64,000 bases of DNA from Heligmosomoides polygyrus polygyrus (taxonomy: Eukaryota; Nematoda; Chromadorea; Rhabditida; Heligmosomidae): assembly GCA_947396885.1 (NCBI GenBank), contig OX377205.1:20943407-21007406 (forward strand), read 5' to 3'. How positions within the stretch are numbered: position 1 is the stretch's first letter; every line of letters begins with the position of its first letter. The notes beneath the pieces are model-generated. The model did no database searches. It had not been told where the DNA came from and was given only the letters and a program-made list of their open reading frames with translations. Shown piece after piece: positions 5,185-61,164 of this stretch. Position numbers and translations under genes: made by a program.

Positions 5185-7613
5185 CTATCGAAGATTCGAT
5201 GGAAGCGCCAGTGGTTCGTCTCCCTTGTATCGTCGGCGAACAGGGCAGCAGCAAACTGGACAGAGGTCAGGTGCAGAAGAAGCCAGTGAACAATGGAGTG
5301 CCAGCGTTTCAGGTGAAACTACTGCCACTGGGGTTTCTTAGGATTGCCCTTGTATCAACGTGGGTTTGGTGTAACTGTGTGCCCGGCTAAGCGTATCTAA
5401 TAACTCGAAAATTATTCACAATCGTTTTTGTATCCACAGAGAGCATAATTGCGGGCCGTTTCTTTCAAACCTCATATTCTCAGTGTTTTGAATGATGTAG
5501 TGGTTCAGAAGGTGTAGCTTAGCAATGATATTTTGTGTGTGAAGAGGTTTGCTGAATCAAGACGAACGTTTTCAGGTGTTCGAAGACGATGGCGATAACG
5601 CTGACCACTATCTAGAGGACATCTTCGAGATGGACAACCACATAGAGCGCTTCTCACTCAACGACCACGACGCGGAGAAGTGGAAAGCGAGCAAGGTGAG
5701 GACTCCGGTTTACTCACAGAGGAAGGTCAGTGAGCTAGGGCGGGAGATTCTGAACGAGATCTACATGGTCTCCAGGATATCATAGAACTGTTTCGTTTTC
5801 GCCGAATATCCAGGGGTAGTCCAAAAATGGCAAGGGAGCGGTATCACTTCAGTGCGGGTCGACAAGGGAGAAGTGATACCTGCAGTGACCTTGTCGTACT
5901 CAGAGTTTGGCCTACAACGGTTTGGAGCTTCAGTTATAGTTAGATCATTGCAATCTGATAACTTCCTAGGTTTCCTGAAAGAAGGTGCAGGGTACATTCA
6001 AATGATTCATTCATAACGATTGCTACAGCGACTGGATGTTCGAGTGGATAGCGATGCGGACTTGCGGGAGAAGTATTGAGGTTCGATCCAGAGATGGGAC
6101 TGCGGTTTGCTAGAAGTCTCTTTCCATTTTTGCAAACGAATTGGCATTTTGGCCTCGGTGGAGTACAGTATTATTGGGTAGTGATAACGGTGACGAGGTG
6201 GTAACCACCTGGTACCCTACCGAAACCAAATGTACTCTTCATTGCAAAAATGGGAAGAGTCCTCTAGCAGACCGCAGGCCCATATCCGCAATCGAAGCCT
6301 TGACCCCCTCCCGCAGGTCCGCATCGCTATCCACTCGCCCATCCTGTCGCTGATGAAGCCATTGCGAGTGAATCATCTAAATGTACCCCGCAACTTCTCT
6401 TCTTGGAAACCTAGGAAAATATCAGTTTGCAATGATCGAAATCTAGTTGAAGCTCCAAACCTTTTGTAGGTCGATTTCTAAGCACGGCAAGGTCACTCTT
6501 GGTGTCACTTCTCCCTTATCGACCCGCAATGAAGTGGTACCGTTCCTTTGCCATTTTTGGATCACCCAGGGCCATTTAGCAAAATGAAACTCTGTTCTGT
6601 GATCCTCGTCCGATCCCCTACAAGACCGTATAGGTTCCCTTCAGGTCTATGGACCGAGCTCACTGACCCTCTTATCAGAGACGCTGTAGATAGGAAGGGC
6701 AAGACAATTCTCTGCATTCTGACGTGGGTGGAGGATGAGAACATTACTAACAGGCTTGAGCGTCCAATATAATCATTTATAAGAGCGGTTGCATTCGGGT
6801 TGGCCCTATCTCTAACACGATATCCAAACTGCACCTCGCCCAAATTTTAACGGGTCCTGGTTTCGTAGCATCGTATTGGAGTATGTCCAGTAAAATCGTT
6901 TAATTCTCCACCAGTATGTACTTGTTTTCAGGTGCCCTTGAAGAAGCTGGCAAACTGTGTGAGCACGTTCACCGTGTGGCAGGACGACGAGGCCAACAAG
7001 GAGAACGTGGATCCACAAAACGGCAAAGCCGCCAAGAAGCCGATCCTCAAGCTGCACAAGTTCCTCATCAGAGACATGTCGATAGAGGTCTGTGCGATGG
7101 CTTCTCTTGGCAGTGTTGTACAGTCACGAAGCCGGAGGTCGGAAAAAAAAATTCTTCCAAATTTCCCACATGAGAATTATTAGTGCTGATCACTACTGTA
7201 GGTAACGGTAGGTATGGTTGATTAGGGGTGGTGGAGTTAGGATCACCAATTTCGTTGAATCCTTGCCTGAAAGGTTTTGCCGCTGATCATCATGAACATA
7301 GGTCCAATTACCTTGATCAGTCAAACCTGCTTACCTAGCGTAAATAGCGGAAGGTTTAAAAACGGATCCAATATTCGTGTTCAGCACCCCAAACGCCTCT
7401 CCCTCCTTAGGCGAATCCTGGCCCAAAATTTTTTCAACCTCTGAGGCTGTGAGAGTAGAGTGGTACTTTTCGTGGTACTCTTCTGTTTACACTCCATGAA
7501 GACAGAGCCTATACCGCTTATTTCAGGAGCACATGGCGAAATTGTTTGAGAGCAGCGAGGACAAGGAGGAGATGAAGAAGGTCGCCAGGAAAATCAACTT
7601 TGACGACGACTAA
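5185..7613 (+). CDS. san-1: MAD3/BubR1-like spindle checkpoint protein, C-terminal half
   Basis: Four exons: 5185-5312, 5576-5695, 6932-7087, 7527-7613 (stop TAA at 7611), all with GT-AG borders and consistent phases. The first exon begins with the last two bases of a codon after a CTTCTTACAG acceptor. Visible motifs are FQVFED (an ABBA motif, Fx[ILV][FYW]x[DE], formed across the first exon junction), FTVWQD (a second ABBA motif), and NKENVDP (a KEN box) four residues later. In BubR1/Mad3 such ABBA-KEN cassettes bind Cdc20 and inhibit APC/C during mitosis. There is no kinase domain, as expected for Mad3/SAN-1. The matching N-terminal exons are at 59174-61164, and the phase fits exactly. If instead the gene starts here, ATG 5199 lies 14 nt after a potential spliced-leader acceptor and would give 158 residues. 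Intron 2 contains a large foldback element. Confidence 0.8.
5808..6572. mobile_element. foldback element in MAD3 intron with tRNA-like boxes
   Basis: Two inverted arms of roughly 300-350 bp: CCAAAAATGGCAAGGGAGCG at about 5820 is mirrored by CTTTGCCATTTTTGG at about 6547, and the similarity continues inwards. Each arm contains a tRNA-like head (GAGTGGATAGCGATGCGG near 6045 and its complement near 6320) with a B-box GGTTCGATCC near 6083. The whole element sits in the intron between exons 5576-5695 and 6932-7087. No transposase is present, so it is non-autonomous. Confidence 0.7.
7340..7440 (+). repeat. fragment of the 'ATTCGTGATCAGCACCCC' repeat
   Basis: A short block around TTCGTGTTCAGCACCCCAAA recurs at 43760-44115, 47320-47370 and 57170-57700. 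It is a dispersed repeat fragment inside the last MAD3 intron. Confidence 0.4.
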
Positions 7614-8103
7614 CCGGCGTGCTCAGAGCAATACTGGTCTCGAAGGGGTCTCATCGATCAGCAGCATCTCGACACAAGATTTGTTCTATGCTATTTCCAA
7701 ACTAATCCGCCTAAGTAAGCAGCGTTTATAGTTTGGTCGCTAGTGGCGCGGTAACTCATAGTCAGATATCGATGCGTTGCGTTGCCTAATCGATACGAGT
7801 GGTTCCGTCACTGTCGCGTCGTGCGTTCATTGTATCATTTGAGTGTAGAAGTCGCTCTAGAGAGACTAATTCCAAGTTCCCATATGTGTAGCCCGAGAGT
7901 AGTTCCCGTTGTGTATGTGTCATTTATTCTGCTGTATATTCTATTGCTATTCATTGGCTCAGTTATCCTCTGCTGGTATCGCTTATATCTAACACGGACT
8001 GCCTGAATACGAAGTTTAGCTGTACATAGATCGTCTGATTTAGCATTCCCATAGTATTATCCACTGTTCATCGATTGTCAGCCTATTGTGTAATGCAGTT
8101 GTT

Positions 8104-8109
8104 AATAAA
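8104..8109 (+). other. candidate poly(A) signal for the left MAD3 gene
   Basis: AATAAA lies about 490 nt after the stop at 7611-7613, in sequence without other features. It is plausible but unproven as the 3' end signal. Confidence 0.35.
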
Positions 8110-8216
8110 TCTGATGAAGAACCAAGTTTAATGCGGTGTTGAGGAAGTTGAACTAAAAGGATTGTTGTAGAGTATTCTCATGTTCAGCTCTGAGATCTAG
8201 GTGAGAATGATTTCTA

Positions 8217-9263
8217 TTAGGTTGTCCCATAAGTCCCCGCCGTTTTTTTTTTTTCAACGATTCACTTCGGATTTCGCCGGCGGTCTCTTGCATAGCGCTG
8301 CATAGCCTTCGAAAGAGAATGATTTGCTCTATCAGAGCATGTATCGCATTTCTTTCTTCATCATGAATTTTGTCAATTTTTAGGTCGTTGAAGTGAAAAG
8401 TGAAAAAGTAGTCACTTGCGCACTTGTTCTCTCCGCTTAGCTTTGGAATTTTTTAGCGCAGTTTTTATAGCACTTGGAAGACAATGTTCTGTACTAGAAG
8501 AATATGTGTTAGTGCTATTTGCTCATTTGTCCTTTATTGATTTTTAGGTCATCAAATTGGGACGTCCGAAGGAGGATGGTTATTTTTGCCGACAGCTCCT
8601 GCTCTGTGGTTGGACTTTTTGGGTTGGTGTTATATGTTGTTCGAAAGAGAATGTCTTGCTCTATAAGAATATGTGTCGCGTTTATTGATTTCTATTGAAT
8701 ATCAACAAAATGCCAAAAAGAGAAAAATCGTCTTCACCAACAACTCCTTCTCCTTCTTCAGTTGTTGATATTCGACAGAAATCAGCGTGAGCCAATAAGC
8801 GCGACACAAATTCTTACTGAGCAAGACATCCTCTTCCAAACGACATATGACAACAAGCAAAAAAGTCCAACCACAGAACCGGAGTTTTGGTAAAAATTCG
8901 GACGGAAAAGTCGGAATTCCCAATTTGATGGACTAAAAATCAATAAAGGGCAAGTGAGAAAATAGGACCAACACATACTCTTGTAGTACAGAACATTGCC
9001 TTCCAAGTGCTATAAAAAACTGCTTAAAAATTACAAACCTAAGCGGAGAGAACAAGTGCGCAAATGGCTACTTTTTCAGTTTTTCACTTTTCAATTCAAC
9101 GACCTAAAAATTGACAAAATTCATGATGAAAAAAGAAATGCAATACACGTTCTGATAAAGCAAACATTCTCTTTCGAAAGCCATGCAGCGCTATGCAAGA
9201 GACCGCCGGCGAAATCTGCAGTGAATCGTTGAAAAAAACGGCGGGACTTATGGGACAACCTAA
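8217..9263. mobile_element. palindromic mariner-type element
   Basis: A 1047-bp element flanked by TA dinucleotides, with ends TTAGGTTGTCCCATAAGTCC, followed by CCGCCG and a poly-T run, exactly inverted at the right end. The two halves are complementary over nearly 500 bp each (for example GCACTTGTTCTCTCCGCTTA near 8430 against its complement near 9040), with the fold centre near 8740. The ends are typical of mariner elements, but no transposase remains. A transcript would form a very long hairpin. Confidence 0.8.
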
Positions 9264-9399
9264 TAATATGATGCCGAAGTAAACTCGCGTAATGTTACTT
9301 CTCGTTCAAGGTTTTCAACCGAAACGCACTTTTAATTTTAATTTTTTTATTCATGTACAAAAGAAGTAACGAACTACATCATAACTGGCCTGCCATCGT

Positions 9400-9860
9400 G
9401 ATATATGCCGTTTTCACATCAAATTGGAGACACTTTTTACGTCGAATTGGACACTCTTCTAGCTAGCCGAAGATTTGAAATCAAAGCGAATACTTCCAAA
9501 CTGATCTACATTAAACTTGGAACTCCAAAAAGGTTAGAATAATTTTTTGCTCAAGGAAAATCTCTGTATAACACTGAAGTCCTCCAGCCAGTAAATGAAC
9601 ACGCTTGGAATTTTATAAAATTTTTATTTCCTGACGAAAAATAATGCTTTAAAGCTTGTTTTCAAGGGCAGGAAGGTGGCCATTTTTTAGTGCTAAAAAA
9701 GCGATGGCGCCACGCCCTCTTCTAAGATGTCGCGACTTTTTCATTCGATTAATAGCAGAATTTCTGTTTGCTTGGAGTTGTGGACACCTGTTAACGATAC
9801 TACAAAAACAACTGCAAAGAAAACACACATTCTCATTTTGTAAGTTTATTTATTTATTTA
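9400..9860 (-). repeat. dispersed repeat R, - copy
   Basis: Contains the inverted R blocks (AAATTGGAGACACTTTT, CTCAAGG..., CCAGTAAATGAACACGCTTG). It has no coding content. Confidence 0.5.
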
Positions 9861-9952
9861 TTTATCCGTATGAACGGATGCAGTTCTGGAACATCGATAA
9901 TGTCGTCGGATACGGTGTTAGCCACCGATATATATAGCGAGAGATGGTAGAA

Positions 9953-10032
9953 CATATAAATATGTATATATATATATATAAAAATATATATATATAAAGA
10001 TATATATATAAAGATATATATACATATATATA
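9953..10032. repeat. TA-rich microsatellite
   Basis: Alternating TA/TATATA runs of about 80 bp with AAA/AGA interruptions. Confidence 0.85.
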
Positions 10033-10247
10033 TGTAGTAGTTCGCAGAGTGTAGTAGTTCACAAGGAGAATACAGACGGTAGCACTCAGTATATAACAGA
10101 GCCAGCATGTAATGGACACAGTAGACAACTTAAGTGCTGCAATATACTTTATTTTAGAGGTAAGTAAAAATCGGAAAGCAAAAAAGACTTAATCATGAAT
10201 AATCCAGATATAGATATATAGAGAGTAGTATGTAGTGTCAGTAGTAA

Positions 10248-10248
10248 G

Positions 10249-10295
<47 letters not shown>
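10248..10295. repeat. (GTT)n microsatellite
   Basis: About 16 uninterrupted GTT units. Confidence 0.9.
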
Positions 10296-10409
10296 AGTAA
10301 GTTCATGTAAGCGGCATTACACTATCAATGAATAGCGGTTGCAGCGAACGTTTCGAGTGCATGGCACAACCTGGTCTTTTGATGCGCCACATGCATGCTC
10401 TTTTATGTG

Positions 10410-10690
10410 CTTTTAGGCGAATTTTAATTTATTATTTTTCTCCTAAAATAAAAATTTTATAAAATTATTACACTTGTTGGGACAGGTAGACTAAAAAGCT
10501 TCAACGAATGTTATAACGAATTTTTCTCGAACAAAAAATGTTCTAGCCATTCCGGAGAGTCTGTAGTTTAACCAGCCTGAAGGTCATTTCGATTTGGAAG
10601 AGCCTGCCTTGATTTCAAAAGTCTTAGGTTTAGACCTAGAAGAGAAAATTTTAGAATCCTCCAATTCGACTAGAAAATGATACAAATACA
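10410..10690 (+). repeat. dispersed repeat R, + copy
   Basis: Carries the R landmarks: ACACTTGTTGGGACAG, TCTCGAACAAAAAATGTTCTAG, GATTTGGAAGAGCCTG and a CCAATTCGACTAGAAAATG end. Confidence 0.5.
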
Positions 10691-10741
10691 ACACCTTTCG
10701 TATTTTTGGCCCCGTCATCGTGCCTTTGATTTAATCTTTGA

Positions 10742-11185
10742 TTGCTGATGGAAAGGGAATGGTATGATGATTCCATCGCAGTTGCTGACACCCGTTCTCG
10801 CAGTAACATAGGAGCTGTCCCAGTTAAAAAATTCTACACTGAACTAAAGAAACTCGGATTTATCCAAGTGATGGGGAAGGGGACACTTAATCCAGTCTAT
10901 TTGACAACGACGGTAAAACTGAAAATAAACTATTTTGCAAGCACGATACGGCTAGCCTATGAGAGGGTCGTTCTCTGAAAATTCCTAGTCGGGGGAGGCC
11001 GTCATGCCTGCGTGTTTGTTTCGCTTTGTAAACGATGCCCTTCCGACTAGGATACATCCGAAAAGTCTGCCACTTATTTGCTTAGGTAACCCCAAAGTCC
11101 CAGTTCTAGTTCAAACACTTGCAGGTTACCTTGCACCTAAAATTGTAGGTCAGTACAAAAGCATTGCGGAGCTAGCCGTAAATAA
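10742..11185 (+). other. unrecognised open stretch
   Basis: An open frame of 78 codons (10742-10978), followed after a stop by another open stretch in a different frame (to about 11185) with an amino-acid composition that could be coding. There are no domains that I recognise and no convincing splice pairing. It may be an old element or exons of an unknown gene. Confidence 0.2.
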
Positions 11186-11186
11186 T

Positions 11187-11478
11187 AGGCGCGGGTGGCT
11201 CAGCCTGGGGAAGTGCCGGCTGTAGCGTGCGTGCACTCGATACCAGGTTACTGTTTCGGATTTCCCACCCAGGCCAACCAAGCCTTCCATCCCCGTGGGG
11301 TCGGTGAATCGGTACCAGACTTGTATGGGAAGGATAGAGCGCTGACTTGCTCATCGGCTGGCCACCGCAAGTCATTGTATGGCCAGATACGTATTCAAGT
11401 TACCTCCACGACATCCCTTAGAAGTAGAGCGTGGCGCATCCCAGAAGGGAAGGAACGACGCCGTCCTTTATCTGTATC
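11187..11478 (+). mobile_element. tRNA-derived SINE, + copy
   Basis: Follows the family consensus: tRNA-like head (GCGCGGGTGGCTCAG), the block AGGTTACTGTTTCGGATTTC, then CCAGGCCAACCAAGCCTTCC, TCGGTACCAGACTTGT, GGCCACCGCAAGTCATTGTA, GTGGCGCATCCCAGAAGGGA, and the tail ACGCCGTCCTTTATC. Boundaries are approximate. Confidence 0.8.
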
Positions 11479-12089
11479 CTAACCGTAAAAGTTCAAGCCG
11501 TCCATCATTAAATGACATATACACTCCCAATCAAGTAATAGTGGAACTCTGGAAAGTGCTAGGCGCAACCTGAACACACAACAAGCAGTACTCTTGCTTC
11601 TCTGCTCTTTCAAATGAGCTGCTAGGACATATCGTAGCTGAAAGGGTGTCAATTTTGTGATCATTCAAGTGGACTACACATTTCCTTAGTAGGATTTCCA
11701 CTCAACTTATTTATTATTATTATTAGTATTGTTATTATTTATTAGGCAATTATATTCATGTAGTAAAATGTGCCAAAAACAGCAAAAGGAAATAGTCAAA
11801 CAATAGCAATACACAGAATGTGCTGCTAACTATTGAATAGATAGAAACTATTATACCAACTAAACTTCGGGTGAAGTCTTCGCGTAATTCTATAATTAAT
11901 AAGGCAAAAACTGTACAGTAACAACACACAACAACAACGACAACATTCAGGAAAAACGAGTGTGTCCACCGAGCCAGATGAGTTTCATCAAGTTCGCTCG
12001 TCGACTAAAATTCAATTGCTTTTTTGTGTTCACGATTGACTTAACTCTTGCGCTGGGAAGTAAGTCCTTATACTTCCTCGCGCTGCCTC

Positions 12090-12340
12090 TTAACTACATC
12101 CTCTGGCAAGCAGCTTTTCTAAAGGATTCGGAGACACCTCCTCGTCTCCCGTGACAAGGACGGTCTCTACATTCCGATCCGCAACAAGACAGTTTTCGGA
12201 ATCGTCTGCCTCAGTGCCGGTTGTCCTCATGCGCCATGCCAACTGTGACTCCTTATCCAGACTATGGTCATGGTATCGCAGTCGAAGCGCAGGCATTCCT
12301 ATTTCACTCGAGCCCAGCACGATACTCGGGTCTTCGCCAT
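12090..12340 (-). CDS. possible terminal exon of the F-box/RCC1 gene
   Basis: On the minus strand, after a good acceptor (GTTCGTCTTGCAG), a frame of 82 codons runs to a TAA stop at 12090. The composition is acidic and coding-like (begins GEDPSIVLGSSE, ends LLARGCS). It needs one base from the preceding exon, whereas the last recognised RCC1 exon (ending 14687) finishes in phase 0, so at least one exon is missing between them or this belongs to another gene. No known domain was recognised. Confidence 0.4.
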
Positions 12341-12499
12341 CTGCAAGACGAACATTTTTGGGAGAAACTCCTTTAAATAGGGTATAGAACATTTATTGAG
12401 CCGAAGGAGATATAAAATTAGTAGAGAAAAAATACAGCAAAAGTTGGTTTTTTGAAGATTAGCGAAGGCGAAGAAAATCGCAAATCAAAAAGAAGGTAA

Positions 12500-12900
12500 A
12501 TCAACGCAGGCAAGAACTTGTATAATGCATGTGGGCGCTCTGCCATTACGAGAAGGCTAGCGTCCTATTCCTTGACTCCCTTTCAATCTTGTGCAAAAAA
12601 TGGCATCACAAGCTGTTGTAGATCTGCTAAAATATTGGCGAAAATAGAGGAAAATGAAAGCTTTGATAAGCCCCTGAATAATGGGCTCTTCTCAGCCAAA
12701 CCTCTCCAAACGTCATTTATAAACAATACTGCTTGCGAGCATTCTTTGGAATGTGCCACTGATGGTGGCACTAAACCAACTCGGCATATAGAGGTCATTC
12801 TGCAAATTTTTAGAGGGATCCCTGCTATTTTTCAAGGGGTACCGATCTGGTGGGGTATTATTGTCTCAACATGGCAATAATACTCCATCGGATCGCTAGA
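12500..12900. other. unrecognised stretch, ORFs on both strands
   Basis: A 120-codon frame on + and a 71-codon frame on - overlap here. Neither shows a recognisable domain, and the splice context is not convincing. It falls within the probable intron/3' region of the F-box/RCC1 gene. Confidence 0.2.
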
Positions 12901-13389
12901 TGGCATAGTTTAAAATCAGAACTAGGGGACTATCTAAACGCCATCGAACCTCTGCCTTTCATTCCTGATTAATGAAGGCATTATTGGCAAATGCTTTCAC
13001 CTCAGGGCGTCCCCCTGTGGTCCAGGGTACAATTAAAATAGTCCAAACCTTCGGCTGTCCACAGCGCTGTCAGATGGTCTCTCATCTCCATTCTGACGAT
13101 TCTTATATCAATGTCCAACGGCGATGGGTAGTACTCCACCTTTTCCTAAACAACGACTGAAATCGGAACGCGTGAAAATCTCTAATTAAAGCAATGGACT
13201 AATGATAAGAAATAAAATGTAGATCTCGATGACAATCAGCCTTTTGGAGTAACCCAAGAACACTGCGCCTACGAGGTGTTATAAATATAATTTCAATACG
13301 TACATATTGCGTCCCACACAGTGACTTGCGGTGGCCAAGCGATGGAGATCTCACAAGGAGAGTTTTTACAGGATGTAGGGTTCCGTGTG

Positions 13390-14110
13390 GGGAGTCCAAA
13401 AACGTGAATGCGCTTCTGTGGTCGAAAAAAGGCGTGTGGAATCGCGAGCACAAAGTTCATTACGCCCTGCTGCCACATAAGCGGATGTGGTCGGCTGGCG
13501 CAGTGGGTAGCGATGATGCCTCTCAGCCGGATCGAATGGATTTTACGGTTCGGCCCCCGGTGTCGCCATAGTTTTTGCACACATCGTGTCGTTATTATTA
13601 TTTGCTTGTGTGATCACGTGAGTCATTTTGTACACTATTACTGCTTTTACTAAGTGAAAGTATTTACCGGTATCAAACCAAACTCGTGAACTATCCCGTG
13701 AAGTGTATGTGTTTGAGAGCATTTACGATATCGTTGTTGATATGATACAGTGCAAATACGATCCGTTGAGAGATAACTCAAATGAAAGCAGAAAAGGGCT
13801 ACATTCAGTTACTAAAAGCATTAATCGTGTACAACTTAACTGCTGTGGTCACGCAAGCACATAATACTAACGACGCGATATGTGCAAAACCTGGGCGACA
13901 TCGGGGATCGAACTATAAAACCCACTCGATCCAGCAGAGAGGCTTCATCGCTACTTATTGCGCCAGCCGACCACATTCGCTTGGGTGGCAGCAGAGAGTA
14001 ATGAACCTCGCGCTCGCGCTTCCACACGCCTTTTTTTCGGCCACAGAAGAGCATTCCGAAAATATTAACTACGGTGTTGGACTCCCTACACGGGATCCCA
14101 CATCCTGTAG
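13390..14110. mobile_element. foldback element with tRNA-like arms
   Basis: An inverted repeat with arms of roughly 220 bp (about 13390-13600 and 13845-14110). The left arm reads GGCTGGCGCAGTGGGTAGCG (a near-perfect A-box) and a B-box-like GGTTCGGCCCC 40 bp later. The right arm carries the complement. The middle of about 240 bp is unique. It has the same design as the element at 5808-6572, and no transposase. Confidence 0.7.
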
Positions 14111-14159
14111 AAATTGCGTCGCAAAAGCTCACCGCTACTTTGGATGCTCTCCTTGTCAG

Positions 14160-14455
14160 TATTTTGTCTTCTTCCCCATGGTGTGTGGTGGGACAATCGG
14201 AGGAGGCGCTGCTGTCGCACGTGCCCAATTCCAGGTTCTTGTTGGAGACTTTGGGACAACGATGACGTTCCACCCGGGATCGGTGAATTAAGAGCAGAAT
14301 CGTCTGGAAAGGTAAAACCCGGCTTGTCCATTGGCTGAACACCGCAAGTCATTTTATAGGTAAAATACGCATCAGAAAGGCTCCAGGCATGCGTGGCGCA
14401 TCCCAGAAGGGATTGACCAACGCCGATATTTATCCCTTTATTCTTAACCTGCCCA
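14160..14455 (+). mobile_element. tRNA-derived SINE, + copy
   Basis: Diverged family member: GGAGGAGGCGCTGCTGTCGC head region, CAGGTTCTTG, GGGATCGGTGAATTAAG, ACCGCAAGTCATTTTATAGG, GCGTGGCGCATCCCAGAAGG, then AACGCC and a TTTATCCCTTTATTC tail. Confidence 0.75.
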
Positions 14456-14686
14456 GACATCTGGTGGTCTGCTTTCCAGTAATCAATATACGGGAACGAC
14501 TAGTAGATCCGAGCGAAACCAAGAAGTGGGCGCCTTGCCTAGGCTGCTTCTCGAGCGCAAAAAAACAACAACGAATTGAAATCAGCAAGCTCACTGAATA
14601 TGGGCAGTTATCAAATGACCCCCTCTAAATGATCAAACCTCTCTCGGTTCTCCTAGTGGAGACGACGTTCGTCTTCACAAACATAC

Positions 14687-17600
14687 CTTTTCATCTCCAA
14701 GCTGTCCGCGGTGGTTCCATCCCCACAGATAGACGTCTCCATCAGCTGCAAAAATAGTCTGATGGTTGGTGGAACAACCAAGAGATTTCGCTCACTATAT
14801 ACAAGCGTTAATGCATAAGCAAATGACTGTCTCTATTCTCTCTTGTTATCTTACAATTATGTCCTCCATCCTTTCCTTTCCTTTGTTTTCTGCACCTCGT
14901 CACGTAAGAGTCAGGTTTCCTCACAGCTACGTTCTTCATTGCCTTTGATTGCCGTGGACTTCACAAGTTTTCGGAATAAAAGAACCATCAACTATGATCG
15001 CCGCATTTCATACCTTTGGAAAGAGCCAAGTTTTTCACAGTTTGTGCTAGTATGGAATATTCCAAAATTATGAGAAAATTTCCTTCAATTCGAGGTGTCA
15101 CTCATTTGAAGAACATGATTCAAAACTTAAGATAAAAAACCTTTTCATCGGCTCTGGACAGTAACGGCAATTTGCTATGAAAATGTTAATCCTCTTTGGG
15201 TTTCCATGTCTATGTTCTATTTGTTACATTCGCATTTAGTTATGACACTAACATCTCTTTTACATGAAATTGCTTGGTTTCATTGAATTCTTAGCTCCTT
15301 ATCTTTTCATGCACTTAGTGTAAGTGCAATAAATGTTAAGCTCCTTGCGTCTCTCGAGCGAGGAGGAGCGACTGGGTCATTCTGGCACGCGACAGGGACA
15401 CCTGTAGCCGGATTCATGAAGCGACGGGAGCGGGAGATATGCGATATCATCTCTCGCCTCTCTCTCCCTCCTCGCTCTCTCACCTGGTCGCTTCCCATGG
15501 GAAGCCAGGAACGTTCCCAGGAACGTTCATGAATCCGGCTGCCATCACCCATTCGAGTAGCATAATGATCAACGGAACGACCGGTGATACTGTCAGTATT
15601 CTGTTAGATGGATGGATAGCATAAAGGGGACTGTGGAAATGACCTTCGGATACTGTTGTTGAGAAAATAAAACACCACTTTCAGCTGCTTTCCATCAGTC
15701 TATGCTCTTCAATTTTCTCAATTTCTGAAGTGATTGTGCAGTGCGCCATTTCGTTGAGTCGCAATCCCAATCCTTTCATCGTTAGAATTTCGGGCAGCAC
15801 TTACCAGTTAGAGCCCCGCTGTGCCAACCAGCCGCCGCAATTTGCACCACTTTCAGACCTTCCAGTGCCTCCACTATGGTCAGCTCCGTGACTCGTGGCA
15901 TCAGACCGACTCCCAATTCACCACGGCTGCAAACAGAAAGTGAATGAGAGCATCAGCTACAACTGTCTCCGATCTGACCGGCTAACAGTTCAGGGATTAA
16001 ATCAGAAAAACGACATGCAGTCAAAGCATTCGAGGAAAAATACCAAACCTCCCAGTTCCTAGCGAATACACCGCTCCTTTGTTCGTCAGGAAAATGCTAT
16101 GATCGTTCCCAGAGGCCGCCTGGAAATCATTACAGCCTAATAAATGGCTTCAAAAGCCGGAAACCTCATAAAGGTTAAAGAACGTACAGCGACAATACGC
16201 ACAGAGTCCTGATTCTGCACAATGATCGGCTTGATCACTCGACTTTTGAAGTAGTCCCACTCGTTGAATAGCCTAATATAGCAGTATGCACAGACATTTT
16301 GTTATGTTTGGATTCTAATATGGCCTACGTATATCTGCATGATAAAGGACAGTGTTGATCAATCAATCCCTCTTAGGATGCACCACGTCAGTGTTTTATT
16401 CCTCAAAGTCTGGTACGATTCAGCGGAAAACATTTTGAACTGAAAACGCGCAAGCAAAGCAACAGCCAATCAGCCTACATCGACAGGGTGTAATTTCAGA
16501 CAAGGCTTGTAAGGTCGGCACCCTGATTGGCTGATGTGTGTGCGTTGATCGGTACTCTGCTGCTATGAATGGCTGGCGCGTACACACCCCCCGTTGCTTC
16601 CTACTTCCGTGAGATGGACCGAAATATCTCACTGGTGTAGGAACTACAAGTAGATGACGGTATTGATCATTAGAGGTGAGATTCGCTTTATACCGGTAAG
16701 CACGCAGTACATACAACTTCAAGTAATAATTCTAAGACCGGTACTTGTGAAGCAAAGGGCCCGTGGTGCCGTGGGATTGCCTGGAGACATGTTAACGCGG
16801 CAACTCCACGGCACCGTGGGGCCGGTACTTATTATGAAGCACCCGTCCTCGGGTGCCGTGGGTTGCCGCGTTTCCGTTGCCGTTGCCGCGTTAACATGTT
16901 TCCCGGCAGCCCCACGGCACCACGGGCCCTCTGCTTCATAAGTACCCTAGAACCTTCCTCCCCATGTTGATATAAATTTGTCCATCCTACCACTGCCTCC
17001 ACGAATTTGCGGAGAAAATAAAACCAGTCAGGCTTTTCCCACCCCAATATGCAAAGATAAGCATAGCGCACTTAGTGACACCGGAAGTCAATATATAGGG
17101 CAAATGCATATTCAAGGTGTCTGCATGTTACGCGAAAAGGTATGTTAGGTTTGTTAAGCAAAAACAAATGCATGGCTCACTCCAAGGAGACTTATCGACG
17201 CCGACCTCTACTCTTTCACCCTCTGCTGCTCCTACACTTTCATTCTCTAAGTACAACTCACCTAATCACTACACTGTCCTCTCCTTTAGTACACACTAGA
17301 AATATCGACGACAACGTGGACGTCAGAATCACGTCAGAGGATGCCTTCGTCGTCTTCCACCATCCATCAGATAAGCTCGATGTGGACTGTCTTTGCGTGA
17401 TCGATTTCCATTCATCAGCTCTGAATTCCATGCTTCCAAGACCTGGACGATCGCGATCGCAACAGTACGGGTTCTGTAAACGGAATCGATTCAATCAACA
17501 ACACTTATACGTTATTTTTTCACTGTCATAGCGGGAACGAAGAACTCCTTACTGAGCAAAAAGGTGCAAATTCCTAGCAGTCTAACAAAATTCGAGAAGC

Positions 17601-50691: not shown

Positions 50692-50989
50692 TCCCGAACG
50701 CAGAACAGTGGTTGCAGGTGAACTCTGTAGATGAGGGTGAAACTTGGGGAGCAATCGAGAACGTTTAAGCACAGACAGAGCAAGATTGCAGCCAGACACT
50801 CGGACGTCAAATGTGTGATTCCGTAGGCACACACTTTGCGTGTCGTCCACGTGCAAGTTTTGTCGAGATGAGTTAGATTTCGTCTGGACATTCTTCCTGA
50901 GCTGCTGGGACAAGATGTAGATGAGGAAATGTTAACTTCAAATCACTATCTGGCCCAGTACGAACTAGGGGGGGGGGACAAGATATAAG

Positions 50990-51300: not shown

Positions 51301-51399
51301 TAGTAAGGGCGTTCCATGGTTAATAAAAACCATGTTTGAATCGCGCGGCTGTGGGCGTTGCACCCCGGACAACTCGGACGGGTTTTTTTTCCGGTTGTA

Positions 51400-51665
51400 A
51401 GTGTATCGGCGAGTGAAAGGAACTCGTCTGAGTTATTGACCGCAGTTTCGGGGTGAAATTCAGGGAAATCGTTACGGAGCCGAGTTGCCTATGCCTCTGC
51501 TAAGTACTCGCTGCAGCTAGTAATATTTGCTTGCATGCTTCTCTGGCGCAAATAGGGTCGGGGGCGGGGGGGGGGGGGGGGGGGGGGCTTCTGATGGGTA
51601 GGAAAATCCCATAGAGGTTGTAGCGTCGTTAATGTCCTTCATCCCTGGCTCTGACGTATAAAGCC
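51400..51665 (+). repeat. tandem segment duplication, unit 2
   Basis: Diverged copy of 51040-51300 with a longer G tract (over 20 G at about 51565-51588). Both hold the GGCGCAAATAGGGTC end of the MITE family. Confidence 0.7.
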
Positions 51666-51810
51666 TGGGTACTATTGTACTTTTGGTACCCCCACTTAAT
51701 CTTGTTTAAAATAGGTCTACTAGGGGTAGTCTGCCATGGGAAGAACGAATATCATAGTCGTTATTTGTGGAAATGCCTTATAAGCCCGTTATATTAAGCT
51801 CTAATTGCCT

Positions 51811-52289
51811 AAGGCCTTGCGAGATAACGCGCGCTGATAAGAGACGCAGAGACTCCGCCTCCTAACGGTGCGCACTATTTCGCTGCCCCTAACCTGCAGC
51901 AGAGATTAGCCAGGGCATAAGCCTTGAAATCTCGAAAAGGCTTGAAAACTCTGTTGGGTGCTCTCTTTCGCTCACGTGAAGGAGAGCACATAACTGGACA
52001 GGGGAAGGGACTCCGGGGTGTGGGTCCCCTAGGACACCCGTGGTAAATCGCATTCATCCTAGAGGTCCCTTTCCTGCCCTATTCGGAAGAAAATAAGATC
52101 CGAATCTGTATTCGAAACGAGGAGATAAGACTGCATTTAATTCGCTGCAAGTATCTAGCCGCTACACCTGCGCGCCACGGCATGCTATGGTAACCCCCCC
52201 CCCCTCCACGGAGGCGGCCGAGAATGCGTGCTGGTAGGGGGCGGAGTCTCTGCGTCTCTTACCAGCGCGCGCTATTTCGCAACGCCTTG
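51811..52289. mobile_element. element with about 52-bp inverted ends beside the gap
   Basis: AAGGCCTTGCGAGATAACGC then GCGCTGATAAGAGACGCAGA at the left; TCTCTGCGTCTCTTACCAGC then GCGCGCTATTTCGCAACGCC at the right. The interior resembles 48091-48320 and carries a poly-C tract at 52193-52204. Confidence 0.75.
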
Positions 52290-52297
52290 AGCGATTC

Positions 52298-52497
52298 NNN
52301 NNNNNNNNNNNNNNNNNNNNNNNNNNNNNNNNNNNNNNNNNNNNNNNNNNNNNNNNNNNNNNNNNNNNNNNNNNNNNNNNNNNNNNNNNNNNNNNNNNNN
52401 NNNNNNNNNNNNNNNNNNNNNNNNNNNNNNNNNNNNNNNNNNNNNNNNNNNNNNNNNNNNNNNNNNNNNNNNNNNNNNNNNNNNNNNNNNNNNNNNN
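52298..52497. other. assembly gap, 200 N
   Basis: Exactly 200 undetermined bases, probably a fixed-size placeholder. The order and distance of the two flanks are therefore not certain. Confidence 0.95.
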
Positions 52498-52499
52498 CT

Positions 52500-53100
52500 T
52501 AGCAGCAGGGATTCTACAGCCATCAAGTATGCGTAAGCACTCTTTTCTCATGCCATCAAGTCTGTCCTTTCCGCATTAATGCGCTCGATGCACACGATTA
52601 ATTCGCTGCTTGCGGTTTTTAGCATCCGCCGTCAATGGTTGCCTTTTTGGCTCTAGTACAAGACGGCGAATCGAGGACTGCTAGTCTTGAGTCATCTTCC
52701 ATTGTTATAACCCCAACTGAGCAAGTCTTTTGTGTCAGAACGACAATGCGTTGTTTACAATGTTGCGAGCGTGGAATTGCTTTGATCTTGGCAGCTGATC
52801 CAGATGTGAACTAGCCTCCAGTGTGTTCATCTTTCTCCTTCCATTGAGATTGCAAAAATGAGAGCGAGGCTTTTTCTCCAGTGGCATTCGTGATCAGTTT
52901 ATTATTTATTTATTTCGCTGCACAAATGTGTGCACAAATTTAATGTAACAAAATGCTTTAAATCACTAACAAAACATTAAGTCAAAACGCAAGACATACG
53001 CTATTGCTAGGGTTTCAGGCTATCTCAAGACCTTGGTCCTAAACGCCGCAGAATTCTTTCTATTGAAATTGAGATCTCGTATATGAGGTGAGCTTCACAG
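52500..53100. other. no feature recognised
   Basis: AT-rich sequence after the gap without a supportable gene. Confidence 0.4.
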
Positions 53101-53104
53101 CAGA

Positions 53105-53285
53105 AGAAAAATTGGGTGTGTAGCTATACAAACGATTCGTATGCGGCGGCGCGGCGACAGAGGCCACTCAGCGCGACGTCCAGGCCGGCCGATGCGTTGA
53201 CCTCGTCGCGCGGGCGGGGACTGCCGCCGTGACGCGACGAATGCCAATTACCGCTCAGGAGGCCTATTCTGCTGCGGCTTTATCC
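53105..53285. repeat. GC-rich inverted-repeat arm
   Basis: TGTAGCTATACAAACGATT then GC-rich sequence is mirrored at about 55670-55805 (AATCGTTTGTATAGCTA). The arms enclose several other elements. Confidence 0.45.
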
Positions 53286-53290
53286 AACTA

Positions 53291-54173
53291 CAGGGTGTCG
53301 CAAAAAATGTATACACTGTTTGGAAGGTGATAACTTTGCTCACAGTAGAGGTACTGAAGAAGTTAAGAGCTCATATGAAAGCTTAAGAAAATGGAAATTT
53401 TCTGACACATGAGTGGTATGGATTACGCCATGCACTCGTCTGAAATTTTGCGTTTTACACTCGATTGATTGTGCTTCGCTTGAATACTTGCTATAATTTC
53501 TTCGCAAAGTGATCGTATCGATTTATTTGTGCTTCTTTTAAGGTTTAAAGCTCAAAAACACCCTTCTGATTGCGAAAAATGCAGAGTATCTCAAAAATGC
53601 AGGTACTGTTTGAAAGGTTCTAAAATTGCTGCTAGTGAAGCTTTTAGAAGATGTTTGAGAATCATATGAAAACAAAGATTAACGAGATTTCTGTGGCGCG
53701 TAAATAGTAAAGATCGCGCCATGCCCCCGTCTTAAATCTTGCATTTCAGACTCAATCGATTGTGCATGTGTGAATGCTTGTTACGTTTAGAACTTGACAA
53801 TAATGTGAAAGACAAGTGACATGCGAGGTTGCTAATTGCACAAAATGTGAGCAGGAGCCCCATTTTCCAAGACGGATTCTGTGGACTGATGAAGCGACAT
53901 TCAAGCTGAATGGAGAGGTTAATCGCCATAATTGCAGCTCCTGAGCAACGGAAAACGTTAGAAGAAGCACAACACAGGTTAATCTGGCGAAGTAGTAACA
54001 GGAGAAAAACAAAGTAACAAGCAACAACCGCATGGAGCAATTCATACCACTTATATGTTTAAAAAATTTCCATTTTCTTAAGCTTTCATATGAGCCCTTA
54101 ACTTTTTCAGTACATGCACTGCGAGCAAAATTATGACCTTTCAAACAGTGTATACATTTTATGAGACACCCTG
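53291..54173 (+). mobile_element. decayed Tc1/mariner-type transposon
   Basis: 883 bp, TA on both sides, long inverted ends (CAGGGTGTCGCAAAAAATGT left; ...TTTTATGAGACACCCTG right; about 130 bp similar). At 53822-53941 the + frame reads [19 protein letters not shown], then EVNRHNC and a stop. This is the DDE transposase region containing the second catalytic Asp (WTDEATF). The rest of the transposase is lost. A degenerate second left end lies inside at about 53577, so another copy is nested. Confidence 0.8.
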
Positions 54174-54654
54174 TATTCTAGAATTCGAGGAAAGCTGAAG
54201 AAATTTATGAAACTGCCATAGCCAGTAAGGCTGCCAGAAACGTAGAAGTCGAATGTCGCTATGACCGTGGTTTGTTTAGAGAAATTGCGAAGCAATGGAG
54301 ATTGCCTTGTACTTGAGGTCACACGGACACTTCATAGTTAGCAAGTTAAAGCAGCAATCAGCATAAAAATTTCCCAGTTAGAATCCTTTGTTCAAATCTC
54401 GGAATATTAACTTCCCCTCAATAAACTTGCAAGGAACAACGACAAAGAGACGAGCTGAAGGAATGATTCTATGACCACTTCCAACATCCCTTCACGTGTT
54501 ATGTTGATTCCTCCTGTTAAAAACCTCGTTTGCGACCTTGTCATTAACAAGAGACTGCCGGCTATTTAGCGCGCAATGGAGGGTCCGAAAGGTCAATTTG
54601 TGCCTAGCATCGGCACACATTAGTCGATTTCCTCCGGCAATGCGAAAAAGGAGT

Positions 54655-54857
54655 GGCGCAAATAGGGTCCAGGGGGACGTCACCCCTTACTCAGTGGTGT
54701 ACGCCTTGGTAAGAAGGCAAGTATAGTACAGTTACTTCATAAATGGCGTACCTCAATTCACTGTAGGGGTAGAACACACTATTGCTGCAAAAAGTTCCGG
54801 TTTCAAAAAGCAAATAGGGCTGTATTACATAGTGACACCCCAGACCCTATTTGCGCC
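54655..54857. mobile_element. MITE with GGCGCAAATAGGGTC ends
   Basis: Left GGCGCAAATAGGGTC, right GACCCTATTTGCGCC. 203 bp; interior TACTCAGTGGTGTACGCCTT and TAGAACACACTATTGCTGCA match 48760-48972. Confidence 0.85.
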
Positions 54858-55019
54858 AAAAGAGTAGGAGTACTTACCAAAATGGTAAGAATTATATCCT
54901 TCCCAGCCGTGAAGGCGAAAAATCCAACATTTTTGAACGCTATGAAATATTCAGAGAATCATCATTTCATTACAACGGGGCGAGGGTATTAAAAATCTTG
55001 TAGTCTATAAATACAAACA

Positions 55020-55620
55020 TTCATCGACTACCCTCCAGCGACCTCGACTAGCCCCAGGGCTGAAGTTTCTAGCCGCTGTCGATCACCATCAATCGTTAAG
55101 TACCGCCAATACACCGTGCCCCCACTGCAGTTGTGACGGATGGAAACACACACTAACTTTTATATATAGTAGGATCGACAAATTGATCAATACCGGTTGA
55201 CGGCGATCGATACCCCAAAAAAGAACTGCAGATTCGTGTTCAGCGACCTCGACTACCCCAGGGCTGAAGTTTCGGACCGCTTGAACAACATCCATAAAAA
55301 CCTACAATTTGATCAATATCGATTGATGGCGATCGATAGTTCAAAAACGAATTCCAGATTCGTGTTCAGCGACCTCGATTACCCCCAGGGCTGAGATCTC
55401 GGACCGCTTTAACGATATCCGCAGAAAATTGATGATTTGATCAATACCGGTTGATGGCGATGGATACTTCAAAAACGAACTTCAGATTCGAGTTCAGCGA
55501 CCTCGACTACCCCCAGGGCTGAAGTTCCTAGCCGCTGTCGATCACCATCAATCGTTAAGTACCGCCAATACACCGTGCTCCCACTGCAGTTGTGGCGGAC
55601 GGATGGAAACACACACTACA
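55020..55620 (+). repeat. about 127-bp tandem repeat array with duplicated flanks
   Basis: Units beginning CAGCGACCTCGACTACCCCC start at about 55037, 55241, 55367 and 55495. The first and last units are followed by the same roughly 100-bp extension (GCCGCTGTCGATCACCATCA ... CACTGCAGTTGTG). Confidence 0.85.
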
Positions 55621-55802
55621 CTTTTTATATATAGTACTAAACCTACCTTCAACGTCATACAGCACCCCTACACCAACATTGGACCTCGTCGCGTCCGCCG
55701 CGCTCGACACGGCCTCTGCGGCAGTGGCGGCCGACCCTCTGACAGCTGCCGCGCTGGCTGACCTCATGCCGCAGACGCGACAATAAATCGTTTGTATAGC
55801 TA

Positions 55803-55818
55803 CCCCCCCCCCCCCCCG
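55803..55818. repeat. poly-C tract
   Basis: About 15 C directly after GTTTGTATAGCTA. Confidence 0.9.
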
Positions 55819-55819
55819 A

Positions 55820-57160
55820 AAAATTCATAACCATGCGATTAATGCGTCTGTAGCAAACAAACAAACAAGAACAAATCCTGCAACTGCCAAAGGAACAAAC
55901 TGCGAAAATTAGAGCCAAGAAGCTGAATTATAACTAAGAGTAAGGACTGGTCAAGAGTCCTCTTGTACTTCTTAAAGATGAAATATTTTTTCGAGATCTT
56001 TTTTCGGCAGCGGTTTGAGAAAAATATTAGTTTTATACCACTTTTTGACCACGGTATCAGGATTTTTCTTTGATCAGCATATCACGCGCCTGAAACTCTA
56101 CAATGATGCATATCTCGCTTCATGAACTGGTCAGTTTTTTCTGCAATTTCAGTCACGCTTCTCATCTTCCTTTTTGCGGTAGCATTCCGTCCATCCATTT
56201 TACCTCCCTTTAAGCTTTCTCTGTTTGTTGGCCTGCGACGTTGGTTTTTATCCAGAGGTCTCCCACTTTCCACATCAATGTATGGTAGGTTGCGCTCGTC
56301 ACGCAGTCCCTTTGTACGATGTCAGGGTGCTGTTTAGAGCCTGAATAGCGCTTTCTGCCGAAGATCTGGGAACGGTCCGTTGCATGTAAGAGAATAGGCA
56401 CACCGTTCGATGTTGAACTTCAAACAGCCGCTCGTTTACGTTAAACACTTACTGATTTTAAGCAGTCATTTGGGGGTTTTCTAAAGGCAAATCCATGGTG
56501 AACGTCGTTTGACACGCGCAAATCGATCGACGCCCGATTGCATGCCAAGTATGTATCCTATCCTTTTCTATATCATCTTTTAGTCCATAAAGTCATCAGC
56601 TCTTTTCCTGACTACACCCTGATTATCATTCGAACTCAGCTCTTCCGTTTTATCTTCTTGCTCCATATTCATTTTTTGTCTGTCCTTCATTTAAAACATC
56701 ATTTCCGATCATCGACACAGAAGTATATATCAGTTAGTCAGGTAATCGGCCCAAAAGTATACATCAATCGTATATGCACCGAAATTCTGCCTTCCTCCAT
56801 GTTAATAATGAGCTTGATGTGCTACGATTTCTTTCCTTTCAATTGAACAATTTTTTACTAGTTCGACTAATAGGATCGATAGCATTTCTGTTACCATTAC
56901 ATGTTTTGTTTCATTCGATTAGAGCGCATCTACGATTGCAATAAATAAATAAATAAGTATAAATAGTCGACAAATTGTTAGCCACTTTGTACAAAAAGGA
57001 CAAAACAGCGACTTGCTTTTCGATTGTGCGTGCACACCAGTGGGTGAGCCAAGTCCGCCGTCAGAAGCGTTTTCGACATAAGGCTAAATGGGGCTATTCG
57101 TTGGTTCCTACCTATTTCGACCAATTTGTGGGTTGACATCATTAAATATTCAGCACTATT
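55820..57160. other. no gene recognised
   Basis: ORFs up to 102 codons (56538-56846) without domains. An AATAAATAAATAAATAAG simple repeat lies near 56940. Nothing supportable. Confidence 0.4.
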
Positions 57161-57169
57161 GTACTTTCG

Positions 57170-57700
57170 GGACTCCAAAGGTCGAGGAGAAGTCGAAAAA
57201 AATTCGCCCAAACTTCGCCTAGGGGGGTTATTTGGGGTGCTGATCACGAATCTGACATCCGTTTTTCGTTCTACGCTGGAGTACGGTAGGTTATAGTAGG
57301 TACGGGTGACTAAGGCTGCCGAAGTCAAAATCACCAATTTTGCCCAAAGTTCGCCAATTTGGGGTGCTGATCACGAATCTGACATCAGTTTTTCATATTA
57401 CGCTGGAGTTTGGGCGAAATCGGTGACCATTACCTTAGTCATCCGTGCCTACCGTAACCCGCCGTACTCCAGCGTAAAACGAAAAATAGATGTCGGATTC
57501 GTGATCAGCGCATCAAATAACCTCCTTAGGGCGAAGATTGGGCGGAATCGGTGATTATTACCTCGGCAGCTTTAGTTACCCGTACCTACCGTAACCTACC
57601 GTAGTCGGTCGAAATTTTAAAAACAGATGTAAGATTCGTGGTCAGCGCCCCAAATAGCCCCCAGGCGATGTTTGGGCGAAAATTTTTTTTCGACCTCCCC
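57170..57700. repeat. 'GATCAGCACCCCAAATAACC' repeat cluster
   Basis: Alternating direct and inverted blocks (GGGGTGCTGATCACGAATCT, ATTCGTGATCAGCGC, CCGTACCTACCGTAACC), the same family as 43700-44165. Confidence 0.65.
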
Positions 57701-57704
57701 TCGT

Positions 57705-59165
57705 GCTCTGGAGTCACCAGAAGTACAATAGTGCTAAACATTTCATTCAGATCTTCTCGAGTTTTCTTCTAAACATGATTCTGCTCGTTGTAGTTCCTTC
57801 TAGTTTAAATTATGTTTCAACCGAAGCGTACCAGCCCTATTTAACCATGCTCCCTTCCTGCGTTCGAATTTTGCTTGCAACTCTTCTGGGGAGAGGAGAG
57901 TTAGTGCCAGATTGGTGTATGCGAGTGGCAGCAGTCTGCGCGTGGGCCGTAATTGTTCCAAGCTAGGAGGTCGAGTGTGCGGTCTGTAATAGAGAGCCGC
58001 CCCATTTGGTTGGAAACGCCTTCCTGCTGGACATAAAAACGGTTAGTGGCAGTTTGCCGTGGTTATTGAACCAAATATAGACCTCTATCAATATTATACT
58101 ATTAATACTAATATTGGACTATATTTCATATTGTCTTCTTCTGCATTTAATTGAAGTTAATCGAAGAGGGAGAGAGATGTATTATCTTAGAGGGGTTGTA
58201 AAGAAGAAGCAATTAGCAGCTGGCGATCTCCACAAAAAACAGGTGGATGTCAAAATTAAACAAAAAACATCTAAATGAGCAAAGATTATCTTCTCCTGAT
58301 TGAGGGCTTTTAATGCCATTCTTATTCTTTGGTTTCTAAAAAGTTCGACCCAATTATACGTGACTCCTTTTTTCTTCTTTCTAAGTCTTTCTGCATTGTT
58401 GAACTCGAAAAATAGTTGTCGAATATAGAATTCTCCTTAATTTTTCTTAGCCAGGGGTTTTTCTGTTTTATTCTACGAGAGTCATTCCTAGTTATGTTCA
58501 CGTCGAAGAGGTTTGTAAGGATGGCTGTGATGTAGGGAGGCTTTTGGGTTCAATCCAGCAGGTGTTGAGATTGCCACCAAGTCCTTAAACTACGCTTCAA
58601 ATGCTTGCTTTTGCTGCAGTCGTTTCTTTCCTAAACCCGCATGAGTAGGGTTCAGTTATCCTCCTAAGCAGTACGCGTTCTTCGCTCATTATCGGTTAAA
58701 TCAACCATTCATTCAGTGAAGACTGGCTGACAATGGTCATGCTCATGTTGTCCTCTCTCTGTCTTCTTCAAATTTTCTCATTTTGATGTTCTGTTGCTGC
58801 CTCTTTAAACATTCCTTTCGTTCCTTGCCCTTTATAGCCGAAGGTGATTGAAAAACACAATAATTTCTAAGAATGCGCTAGAGAGGCATGGAAAATCACT
58901 AGGAATTTGAAAAGAGACGGTCATTACCGTTCATTCTGCTTTCGTTGAGCTGGGACGAGGTCCAGAATTCTGGTTTGTCGCAGAGAGGACCCAGCATTTT
59001 CGGCAAACTCGTTCATTTCTTCGATACTCCTGGAAGTTTGGCCATAGGCTGAGAAGTCAATGAATCCTCCCACGTAGTTCATGCGTTTTCCACCGTGGAG
59101 GAGATTCTCGCAGTCCTCGACTTTGTGGTCATTCGCCAGCTCTCTATTTCATAAGGTGCACTGTG
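57705..59165. other. region upstream of the right MAD3 half, nothing recognised
   Basis: No credible exon on either strand. The last acceptor-like site before the MAD3 start is GTGTTGCAG at 59163-59171. Confidence 0.4.
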
Positions 59166-59173
59166 TTGCAGCA

Positions 59174-61164
59174 ATGCCGAGTGGCACTCCTGAAGAGGAA
59201 CCATCGCAGCCGGAGCCCTCCGAGTTCGTGTGGGAGCTGTGTCGTGAGAATGTGAAGCCGCTGAAGTCTGGGCGTCGTGTTGAAGCCATTAATCAGGTAG
59301 GCTTTTCGCCATGTGTGCCATGTTCTCGTCAAATTGGACACCTCTCTAAGCCGAAATAAAACTGAACGTCTTCCAAAGCAATAGTAGCGTCCTCCAGGTT
59401 AAGCATTTCATTTCGACATGGCTAGAATAATTTTTGTTCATGAAAAATTTGAAATATCCTTCCTTGAGTTTTTTAAATTAACCTATCTCAACAAGTGATG
59501 ACACTATTTGAAATTTTATGAAGTTTTATTTTTTAGAGGAAAATAATGAAGTAAGCCTTATTTATAAAGCTCGAGGGACTCGAGGTGCTCGCTCGATGGA
59601 CTAGTATATTGGCTTTGATGTCAAAATGAAGCTCGAGATGACATTAGGTCACTCTAGGTGGTCTACTTGCTCTTTCGAACTTTTCTGTGGGACGGTTTCG
59701 TTCTATAACCATCATAGGTTGGGAGTGTTCTTCCTAACTTATGTCTTATACCGCAGAAAGGCAACTGGCATTTAGTATGTTAAAAAAGAGATCGCGCCAC
59801 TCAACTAGCTCGTCGCGTCTAAATTTGATTGATAGTGTGAGTGAGCGCTGCGTACTTGTAATAGGAGAATAAGGCGATGTGTGTTCCTGTAGCTGTTCCT
59901 TTCGTGCGGTTAACTTCTTTGTTACTCCATGTGAAGAGAATTTTTGTTATCAATCGATTAAAAATTGTGACGATCTAGTAGAACATATGGAGCGATCTTC
60001 TCCTTAATACAATAATTTAAGTGATCAATTGAATCGCATTACTGTTTGATTTATTTAATTCCTGATTACGTGTGCTTTAAAAATATAATTCATTATTTTT
60101 TCTTAATACAATATTTCTAAATAAAATTTCGAATAGTGGGGCAAGTGAGTTTAAAAATGTCGAAGGAAGTTGTGCTAAATTTCGCTTCAAAAATCATTCT
60201 ATCCGTGTTGAAGAGTCACTCGTTTAATATCGAGGACACTCATTTCAGTTTGCAAGATGTTCAGTATGATTCCCAAAGCTAAGCTTGCGTAGCAGTGCGT
60301 CCAACATGATTTTAAAAGTGTCTGGTTTGACGCGAAAATGCTACACCTTTGCTCGGATTTTCACCGTAAAATCATTCCTTGGGATTGAGTGGTGGACTCG
60401 TTTCTTAGGAAGCAGTCGATAGTTATTTACCGAAGGAAGCGTTCCCCTTCAGGCTCTGACTAGAAGTGCGTGTGGTCCGAAGGCGCAGACCCTGGCGACG
60501 CAGAAGTTCGACGAGACCATGCAGCTGTGCGAGGCGTCATCAGATCCCCTCAAGCACTGTCTCGAGTTCTGCACCTGGTTCGATCAGACGTTCCCGAACG
60601 GTCGACAACGTCTCTACTACTCGCTTCTGTGGAAGATTGTGAACAAGTGAGGCAGCTTCCGCTGCGAATCGCACACATTCCTATCTTCATCCGAACCTTT
60701 CAGGTACGCAAAGCTGCCAGAATACCTCGACGACGAGAGAATGTTACGCATCTGGGAGAAGCTGGCCGACAACAGTCTCGACCACGGCTGGGAGATCTAC
60801 CAGCACGCGAATTCCATCGGATCTCTGCTCAGGTGATCCCAATCGCGAAGAGTTATGGCTGCGCGTGCCGACGACCGTTGGTTGGTCCCGCCGTGCGATA
60901 ACGCTCGTTGCAGACATGCTCCGCTGTATGTACGGTGGTCACAGGATCTCGAGATGCGTGGCGCGATAGCGGACGCCAGAGCGGTGCTGCGCCGCGCGCG
61001 ACGCGTCGGTGCCCTTCCGCTGGACGCCATAGACGCCGAGGAGGACCAGCTGGAGATGCGAGAAATTCGGCGCCATCTGCAGAGCGCTGAGGGTGGCGAC
61101 GACTCGTGGGACGAGGACGCATTGGACGAGAACGGAAAGCGCGTCGCCTTCACCAGGCTGGCAG
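59174..61164 (+). CDS. san-1: MAD3/BubR1-like spindle checkpoint protein, N-terminal half
   Basis: Exons 59174-59296, 60453-60646, 60704-60832 and 60914-61164, all GT-AG and in phase. ATG 59174 follows a TTGCAG acceptor by two bases, fitting spliced-leader addition. The fold is the Bub1/Mad3 N-terminal TPR domain: WELCRENVKPLKSGRR at residues 20-35 (human BubR1 has WELSKENVQPLRQGR), DPLKHCLEFCTWFDQTFPNG, and APLYVRWSQDLEMRGAIADA (human [20 protein letters not shown]). In BubR1/Mad3 this domain with its KEN box inhibits Cdc20-APC/C until kinetochores attach. Here the first KEN is REN. The last exon ends one base into a codon with donor GCAG/gtagct; no following exon is in the window on this side. 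The exons at 5185-7613 fit its phase and biology. Intron 1 holds two R repeats in opposite orientation. Confidence 0.85.
59330..59560 (-). repeat. dispersed repeat R, - copy in MAD3 intron 1
   Basis: TCAAATTGGACACCTCTCTA, GAATAATTTTTGTTCATGAA, CTCAACAAGTGATGACACT. Confidence 0.55.
59760..60340 (+). repeat. dispersed repeat R, + copy in MAD3 intron 1
   Basis: GATCGCGCCACTCAACTAG, AATTTCGAATAGTGGGGCAA, ACACTCATTTCAGTTTGCAA, TGTCTGGTTTGACGCGAAA. With the copy at 59330-59560 it could form a long intronic hairpin. Confidence 0.6.

Follow-up and report, generated by a model that had tools for sequence, protein, structure and literature searches.

The window analysed here, a stretch of 64,000 nucleotides from Heligmosomoides polygyrus polygyrus at positions 20943407-21007406 of its scaffold, displays the two halves of a spindle-checkpoint gene, MAD3/SAN-1, in swapped order, with the C-terminal half near its left end and the N-terminal half near its right end. 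This raises the question of whether a gene has been broken, a chromosomal segment has been duplicated, or the arrangement was made by the assembly.

Two whole MAD3 genes cut by the window edges

All eight exons proposed in the first-pass annotation were recovered where it had placed them, with GT-AG borders. The last donor of the N-terminal half (after 61164) falls one base into a codon, while the C-terminal half opens with two codon bases and closes with a stop; the proposed join of the two halves does give one frame of 395 residues, in which G and CT together specify an alanine. That join, however, mixes two genes, its N-terminal half coming from what we term copy B and its C-terminal half from copy A. 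We examined the flanks, 50 kb leftward and 250 kb rightward of the window (364 kb in all), and there tblastn found the missing halves just beyond its limits, as had been predicted: the N-terminal exons at -4083..-2096 and the C-terminal exons at 65957-69685 (window coordinates throughout, with negative values lying to the left). Copy A extends over -4083..7613 and copy B over 59174..69685, each with eight exons; they share the same orientation and stand 61-63 kb apart on the scaffold. Their parts are as follows:

-4083..-2096, left of the window, + strand: MAD3 copy A exons 1-4 (tblastn, splice model)
1..5184, + strand: MAD3 copy A intron 4, right part (whole intron -2095..5184)
5185..5312, + strand: MAD3 copy A exon 5 (splice model)
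5576..5695, + strand: MAD3 copy A exon 6 (splice model)
6932..7087, + strand: MAD3 copy A exon 7, bearing the KEN at residue 338 (splice model, alignment)
7527..7613, + strand: MAD3 copy A exon 8 with the stop (splice model)
59174..59296, + strand: MAD3 copy B exon 1 (splice model)
60453..60646, + strand: MAD3 copy B exon 2 (splice model)
60704..60832, + strand: MAD3 copy B exon 3 (splice model)
60914..61164, + strand: MAD3 copy B exon 4 (splice model)
61165..64000, + strand: MAD3 copy B intron 4, left part (whole intron 61165-65956)
65957-69685, right of the window, + strand: MAD3 copy B exons 5-8 (tblastn, splice model)

Intron 4 measures 7,280 bp in copy A and 4,792 bp in copy B, and both window edges fall inside it. 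Because the window begins in intron 4 of copy A and ends in intron 4 of copy B, what looks like one gene appears both cut and swapped; the split look is an effect of the window edges cutting both copies. The "circularly permuted order" initially described was thus produced by the window, and a circular permutation of MAD3 is ruled out, each half meeting its own partner in the flanks.

Intron 4 of both copies also contains an antisense tRNA-Ser gene with the anticodon GCU (3037-3120 and 63632-63715, both on the - strand), and intron 6 of copy A harbors a long imperfect inverted repeat (5779-6603, 75%).

The encoded protein and the divergence of its two copies

Copy A by itself encodes 395 residues. 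In agreement with the Bub1/Mad3 domain read from the sequence at first pass, its product matches the Pfam family Mad3_BUB1_I (PF08311) with 70.9 bits against a cut-off of 31.4; this is the sole Pfam family at E <= 0.001, and the stop stands at residue 396, which bears out the earlier description of an ending without a kinase. Judged by these sequence features, the protein is a kinase-less member of the Bub1/Mad3 family, namely MAD3/SAN-1, SAN-1 being what we take to be the Caenorhabditis elegans counterpart of the MAD3/BubR1 gene. It resembles the MAD3/BubR1 checkpoint proteins in its Mad3_BUB1_I domain, its KEN near the C-terminus, its lack of a kinase and its length, and differs from them in that its first KEN box is replaced by REN. 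The C-terminal motif (KEN2) lies at residue 338, shortly after a Trp, and is also kept in several relatives in our alignment. Near the N-terminus KEN1 was not found: REN stands at residues 24-26, aligned to SKENVQPL of human BUBR1. Among the 12 aligned rows, REN is present in all eight strongylid rows that cover the site (the present sequence and seven others), two rows do not extend over it, and two other nematodes display different residues. The corresponding codons belong to exon 1, which lies to the left of the window in copy A and at 59174-59296 in copy B. For C. elegans san-1, a passage of the literature reports both KEN boxes to be degenerate (PMC5204127).

In a search of protein entries clustered at 90% identity, the closest proteins among the best 15 matches from 5001 candidates were from strongylid nematodes, with a Nippostrongylus protein showing 82% identity over the full query. 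The same search returned a 219-residue protein labelled Heligmosomoides polygyrus, with 93% identity over 59% of the query. It corresponds to the N-terminal half of copy B extended into intron 4, minus a stretch of 15 residues, and is otherwise identical to it; copy A differs from it by one residue. A count of MAD3 genes in the relatives from this search was dropped, given the 90% clustering, the limited candidates and the origin of the three Nippostrongylus entries from different assemblies.

Over 1187 aligned bases, the coding sequences of the two copies show 20 differences (dS 0.075, dN 0.002). Since 18 of these differences are synonymous and two nonsynonymous, the comparison says that both copies have been under constraint and would have remained functional over most of the period since their separation. 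Relative to copy A, exon 6 of copy B has gained 6 bp, which keeps the frame, and its exon 7 has lost 1 bp; this deletion shifts the frame, which then ends at 367 residues, and is probably either recent or an error of the consensus.

The contig of copy B and the origin of the duplication

A direct repeat of about 2 kb had been noticed beside the two gene halves. It is real (1674-3409 versus 62323-63997, 85%), but merely the visible part of a homology of ~22 kb, in which 52498-75377 aligns colinearly to -8017..13435 from its first to its last base, with indels. The blocks of this blastn chain range from 72 to 94% identity; 73% of the copy B contig lies in colinear blocks, the rest being insertions, and large insertions occur on either side of the alignment. 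The copy B block coincides exactly with one contig of 22,880 bp (52498-75377), bordered by scaffold gaps of 200 N at 52298-52497 and 75378-75577. Against the first contig, which bears copy A, its first 43 bases match at 40 positions and its last 43 at 42. Both of its ends are thus inside the homology, with no unique flank and no junction between duplicated and unique sequence within the contig. The corresponding features in the window are:

1..13435, + strand: first copy of the ~22-kb block, in-window part (whole block -8017..13435; blastn chain)
52298..52497, no strand: 200-N scaffold gap, left border of the copy B contig (N run)
52498..64000, + strand: copy B contig, in-window part (22,880-bp contig 52498-75377; next gap 75378-75577)

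Such full containment of one contig in the homology of its neighbor is the expected appearance of an alternative haplotype left unpurged, and comparable situations recur close by. Within the 364 kb, seven 200-N gaps delimit eight contig pieces, the outer two being cut by the limits of the retrieved region. A contig of ~20 kb (160963-181334) partly duplicates the first contig, with 36% colinear coverage, and another of ~20 kb (181535-201676), in inverted orientation, partly duplicates 201877-253552, with 50% colinear coverage; about half or more of each is without a counterpart within the 364 kb. The ends of two long contigs overlap for ~6 kb at 95-97% identity (154829-160762 versus 201877-207626), with the two short contigs lying between them. 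As a background, we took 60 tiles, each 22,880 bp long; those that touch none of the pairs above show at most 9% colinear coverage. We also asked whether contig 160963-181334 bridges the end of the first contig and the one that follows copy B, and found no such link.

Across the genome (656.17 Mb in 1130 contigs), the N-terminal-half region gave 57 matches among the best 40 of 1222 candidates, two of them full-length and the other 55 short, and no third full-length place was seen among those 40 scored candidates. The short matches are all confined to intron 1 (query 430-1446), the pattern that dispersed repeats would give. A genome-wide Pfam search returned neither this family nor any of its 14 controls and so carries no information.

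The published description of the H. polygyrus assembly gives 656.6 Mb in 1278 scaffolds; its 3460 gaps total 691.6 kb of N, which works out at 200 per gap. It reports scaffolding with YaHS, the use of purge_dups and the removal of 24 haplotigs by hand; the genome BUSCO duplication amounts to 2.5%, versus 1.2% in H. bakeri, and the heterozygosity, described as high, to 1.67% (PMC10682056).

With respect to the origin of copy B, the first-pass annotation had offered two readings. Good support exists for the one in which the assembly had placed haplotypes or contigs one after another, as the 200-N gaps bound the copy B contig exactly. In our reading, the duplication was most likely made by the assembly: the copy B contig is very probably an unpurged haplotig that carries a hyper-divergent MAD3 allele, with no split gene at the locus. 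The two copies would then be alleles, as inferred from the sequence and the layout of the contigs. We favor this reading because copy B occupies its own contig between N gaps, because the ends of that contig lie within the homology, and because the same pattern is seen in neighboring contigs. The published heterozygosity, BUSCO duplication and hand-removed haplotigs also speak for it, as does a dS between the copies near that between H. bakeri and H. polygyrus. The 22.9-kb contig would represent the other haplotype of the copy A locus, which may have escaped purging, probably on account of its divergence; Hi-C scaffolding would then have set it beside its allele, and the 64-kb window would cut both alleles in intron 4. 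Several observations count against it: the divergence between the copies is far above the mean heterozygosity of the species, the frameshift in copy B also fits a decaying duplicate gene, and the two other duplicated contigs are only partly covered. Likewise, the hyper-divergent calls of PMC10682056 were made in H. bakeri, with stress on host-interaction rather than mitotic genes.

The same divergence and the same 1-bp deletion, together with the presence on a single scaffold of two copies that are colinear and in direct orientation, would suit a real segmental duplication of ~22 kb or more that took in the whole of MAD3 and left copy B as a second locus with a now truncated frame. We consider this unlikely, as copy B is bordered by assembly gaps instead of junctions with unique sequence, its contig ends within the homology, the pattern recurs in the neighboring contigs, and the constraint on both copies is explained equally well by alleles. 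The other reading of the first-pass annotation, a tandem duplication of ~60 kb with breakpoints in the MAD3 intron, drew on the C-terminal half preceding the N-terminal half inside the window, with the repeat on both sides. It does not survive the flanks: the repeated unit measures ~22 kb and includes MAD3 in full, both genes are complete once the sequence beyond the window is read, and the intron is broken only by the window edges. Moreover, nothing in the contig that follows copy B (75578-112562) is colinear with the ~39-kb spacer (13.4-52.3 kb), of which the part at 41.8-51.4 kb finds its sole counterpart at 161.3-171.6 kb, in a further short contig. Such a tandem is ruled out as long as the flanking contigs are not misjoined, and we grant it a very slight probability. 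Slighter still is the chance of two separate half-genes, trans-spliced or independently transcribed: the exon order inside the window, taken alone, would suggest them, but each half has a partner of the same orientation up- or downstream, with matching splice phase.

Divergent haplotypes and a probable false gene duplication

A haplotig of this kind would parallel the heterotype false duplications described in vertebrates (Ko et al. 2022, PMC9516828), in which a divergent second haplotype kept separately produces a false extra gene; there, reads sorted the false duplications from the true, whereas the present case is argued from the assembly sequence. In this assembly, a MAD3 that looks "split" or "duplicated" is most likely an artifact. 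Two further contigs on the same part of the scaffold partly duplicate others, and gene counts taken from such regions would overstate families.

The dS of 0.075 between the copies is close to that between H. bakeri and H. polygyrus, given as 6.6% for BUSCO genes or 0.074 for 9,753 orthologues (PMC10682056). That study (Stevens et al. 2023) describes hyper-divergent haplotypes in H. bakeri, where identity drops under 90% in many regions, along with old shared haplotypes whose divergence is at the level of the species dS and some hyper-divergent genes whose sequences from H. bakeri and H. polygyrus are not resolved into separate clades. The MAD3 locus resembles these in a divergence comparable to that between the two species, its large indels and its identity below 90% in places. 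It differs in that the published calls, in H. bakeri, are enriched for host-interaction genes, and in that both haplotypes would here stand on one scaffold. Should the two copies be allelic, the haplotype pair, about as diverged as two species, would hold a mitotic housekeeping gene. We more tentatively raise the rather doubtful possibility that the locus lies in an old hyper-divergent haplotype, with divergence near that of the sister species, in which the protein of one haplotype is truncated after the KEN at residue 338; in that event wild worms may carry a segregating variant of the spindle checkpoint, in a gene outside the host-interaction class from which haplotypes of this kind are known.

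The two copies also differ by mobile sequence. Copy A bears an insertion of ~1.05 kb at ~8216-9264 with terminal inverted repeats, a TA target duplication and a longest stop-free stretch of 81 residues, which is presumably a non-autonomous mariner-type element; copy B presents its clean empty site near 70280. A dispersed repeat of ~300 bp at 62022-62326 has 71 matches in the 364 kb, 49 of them at least 200 bp long.
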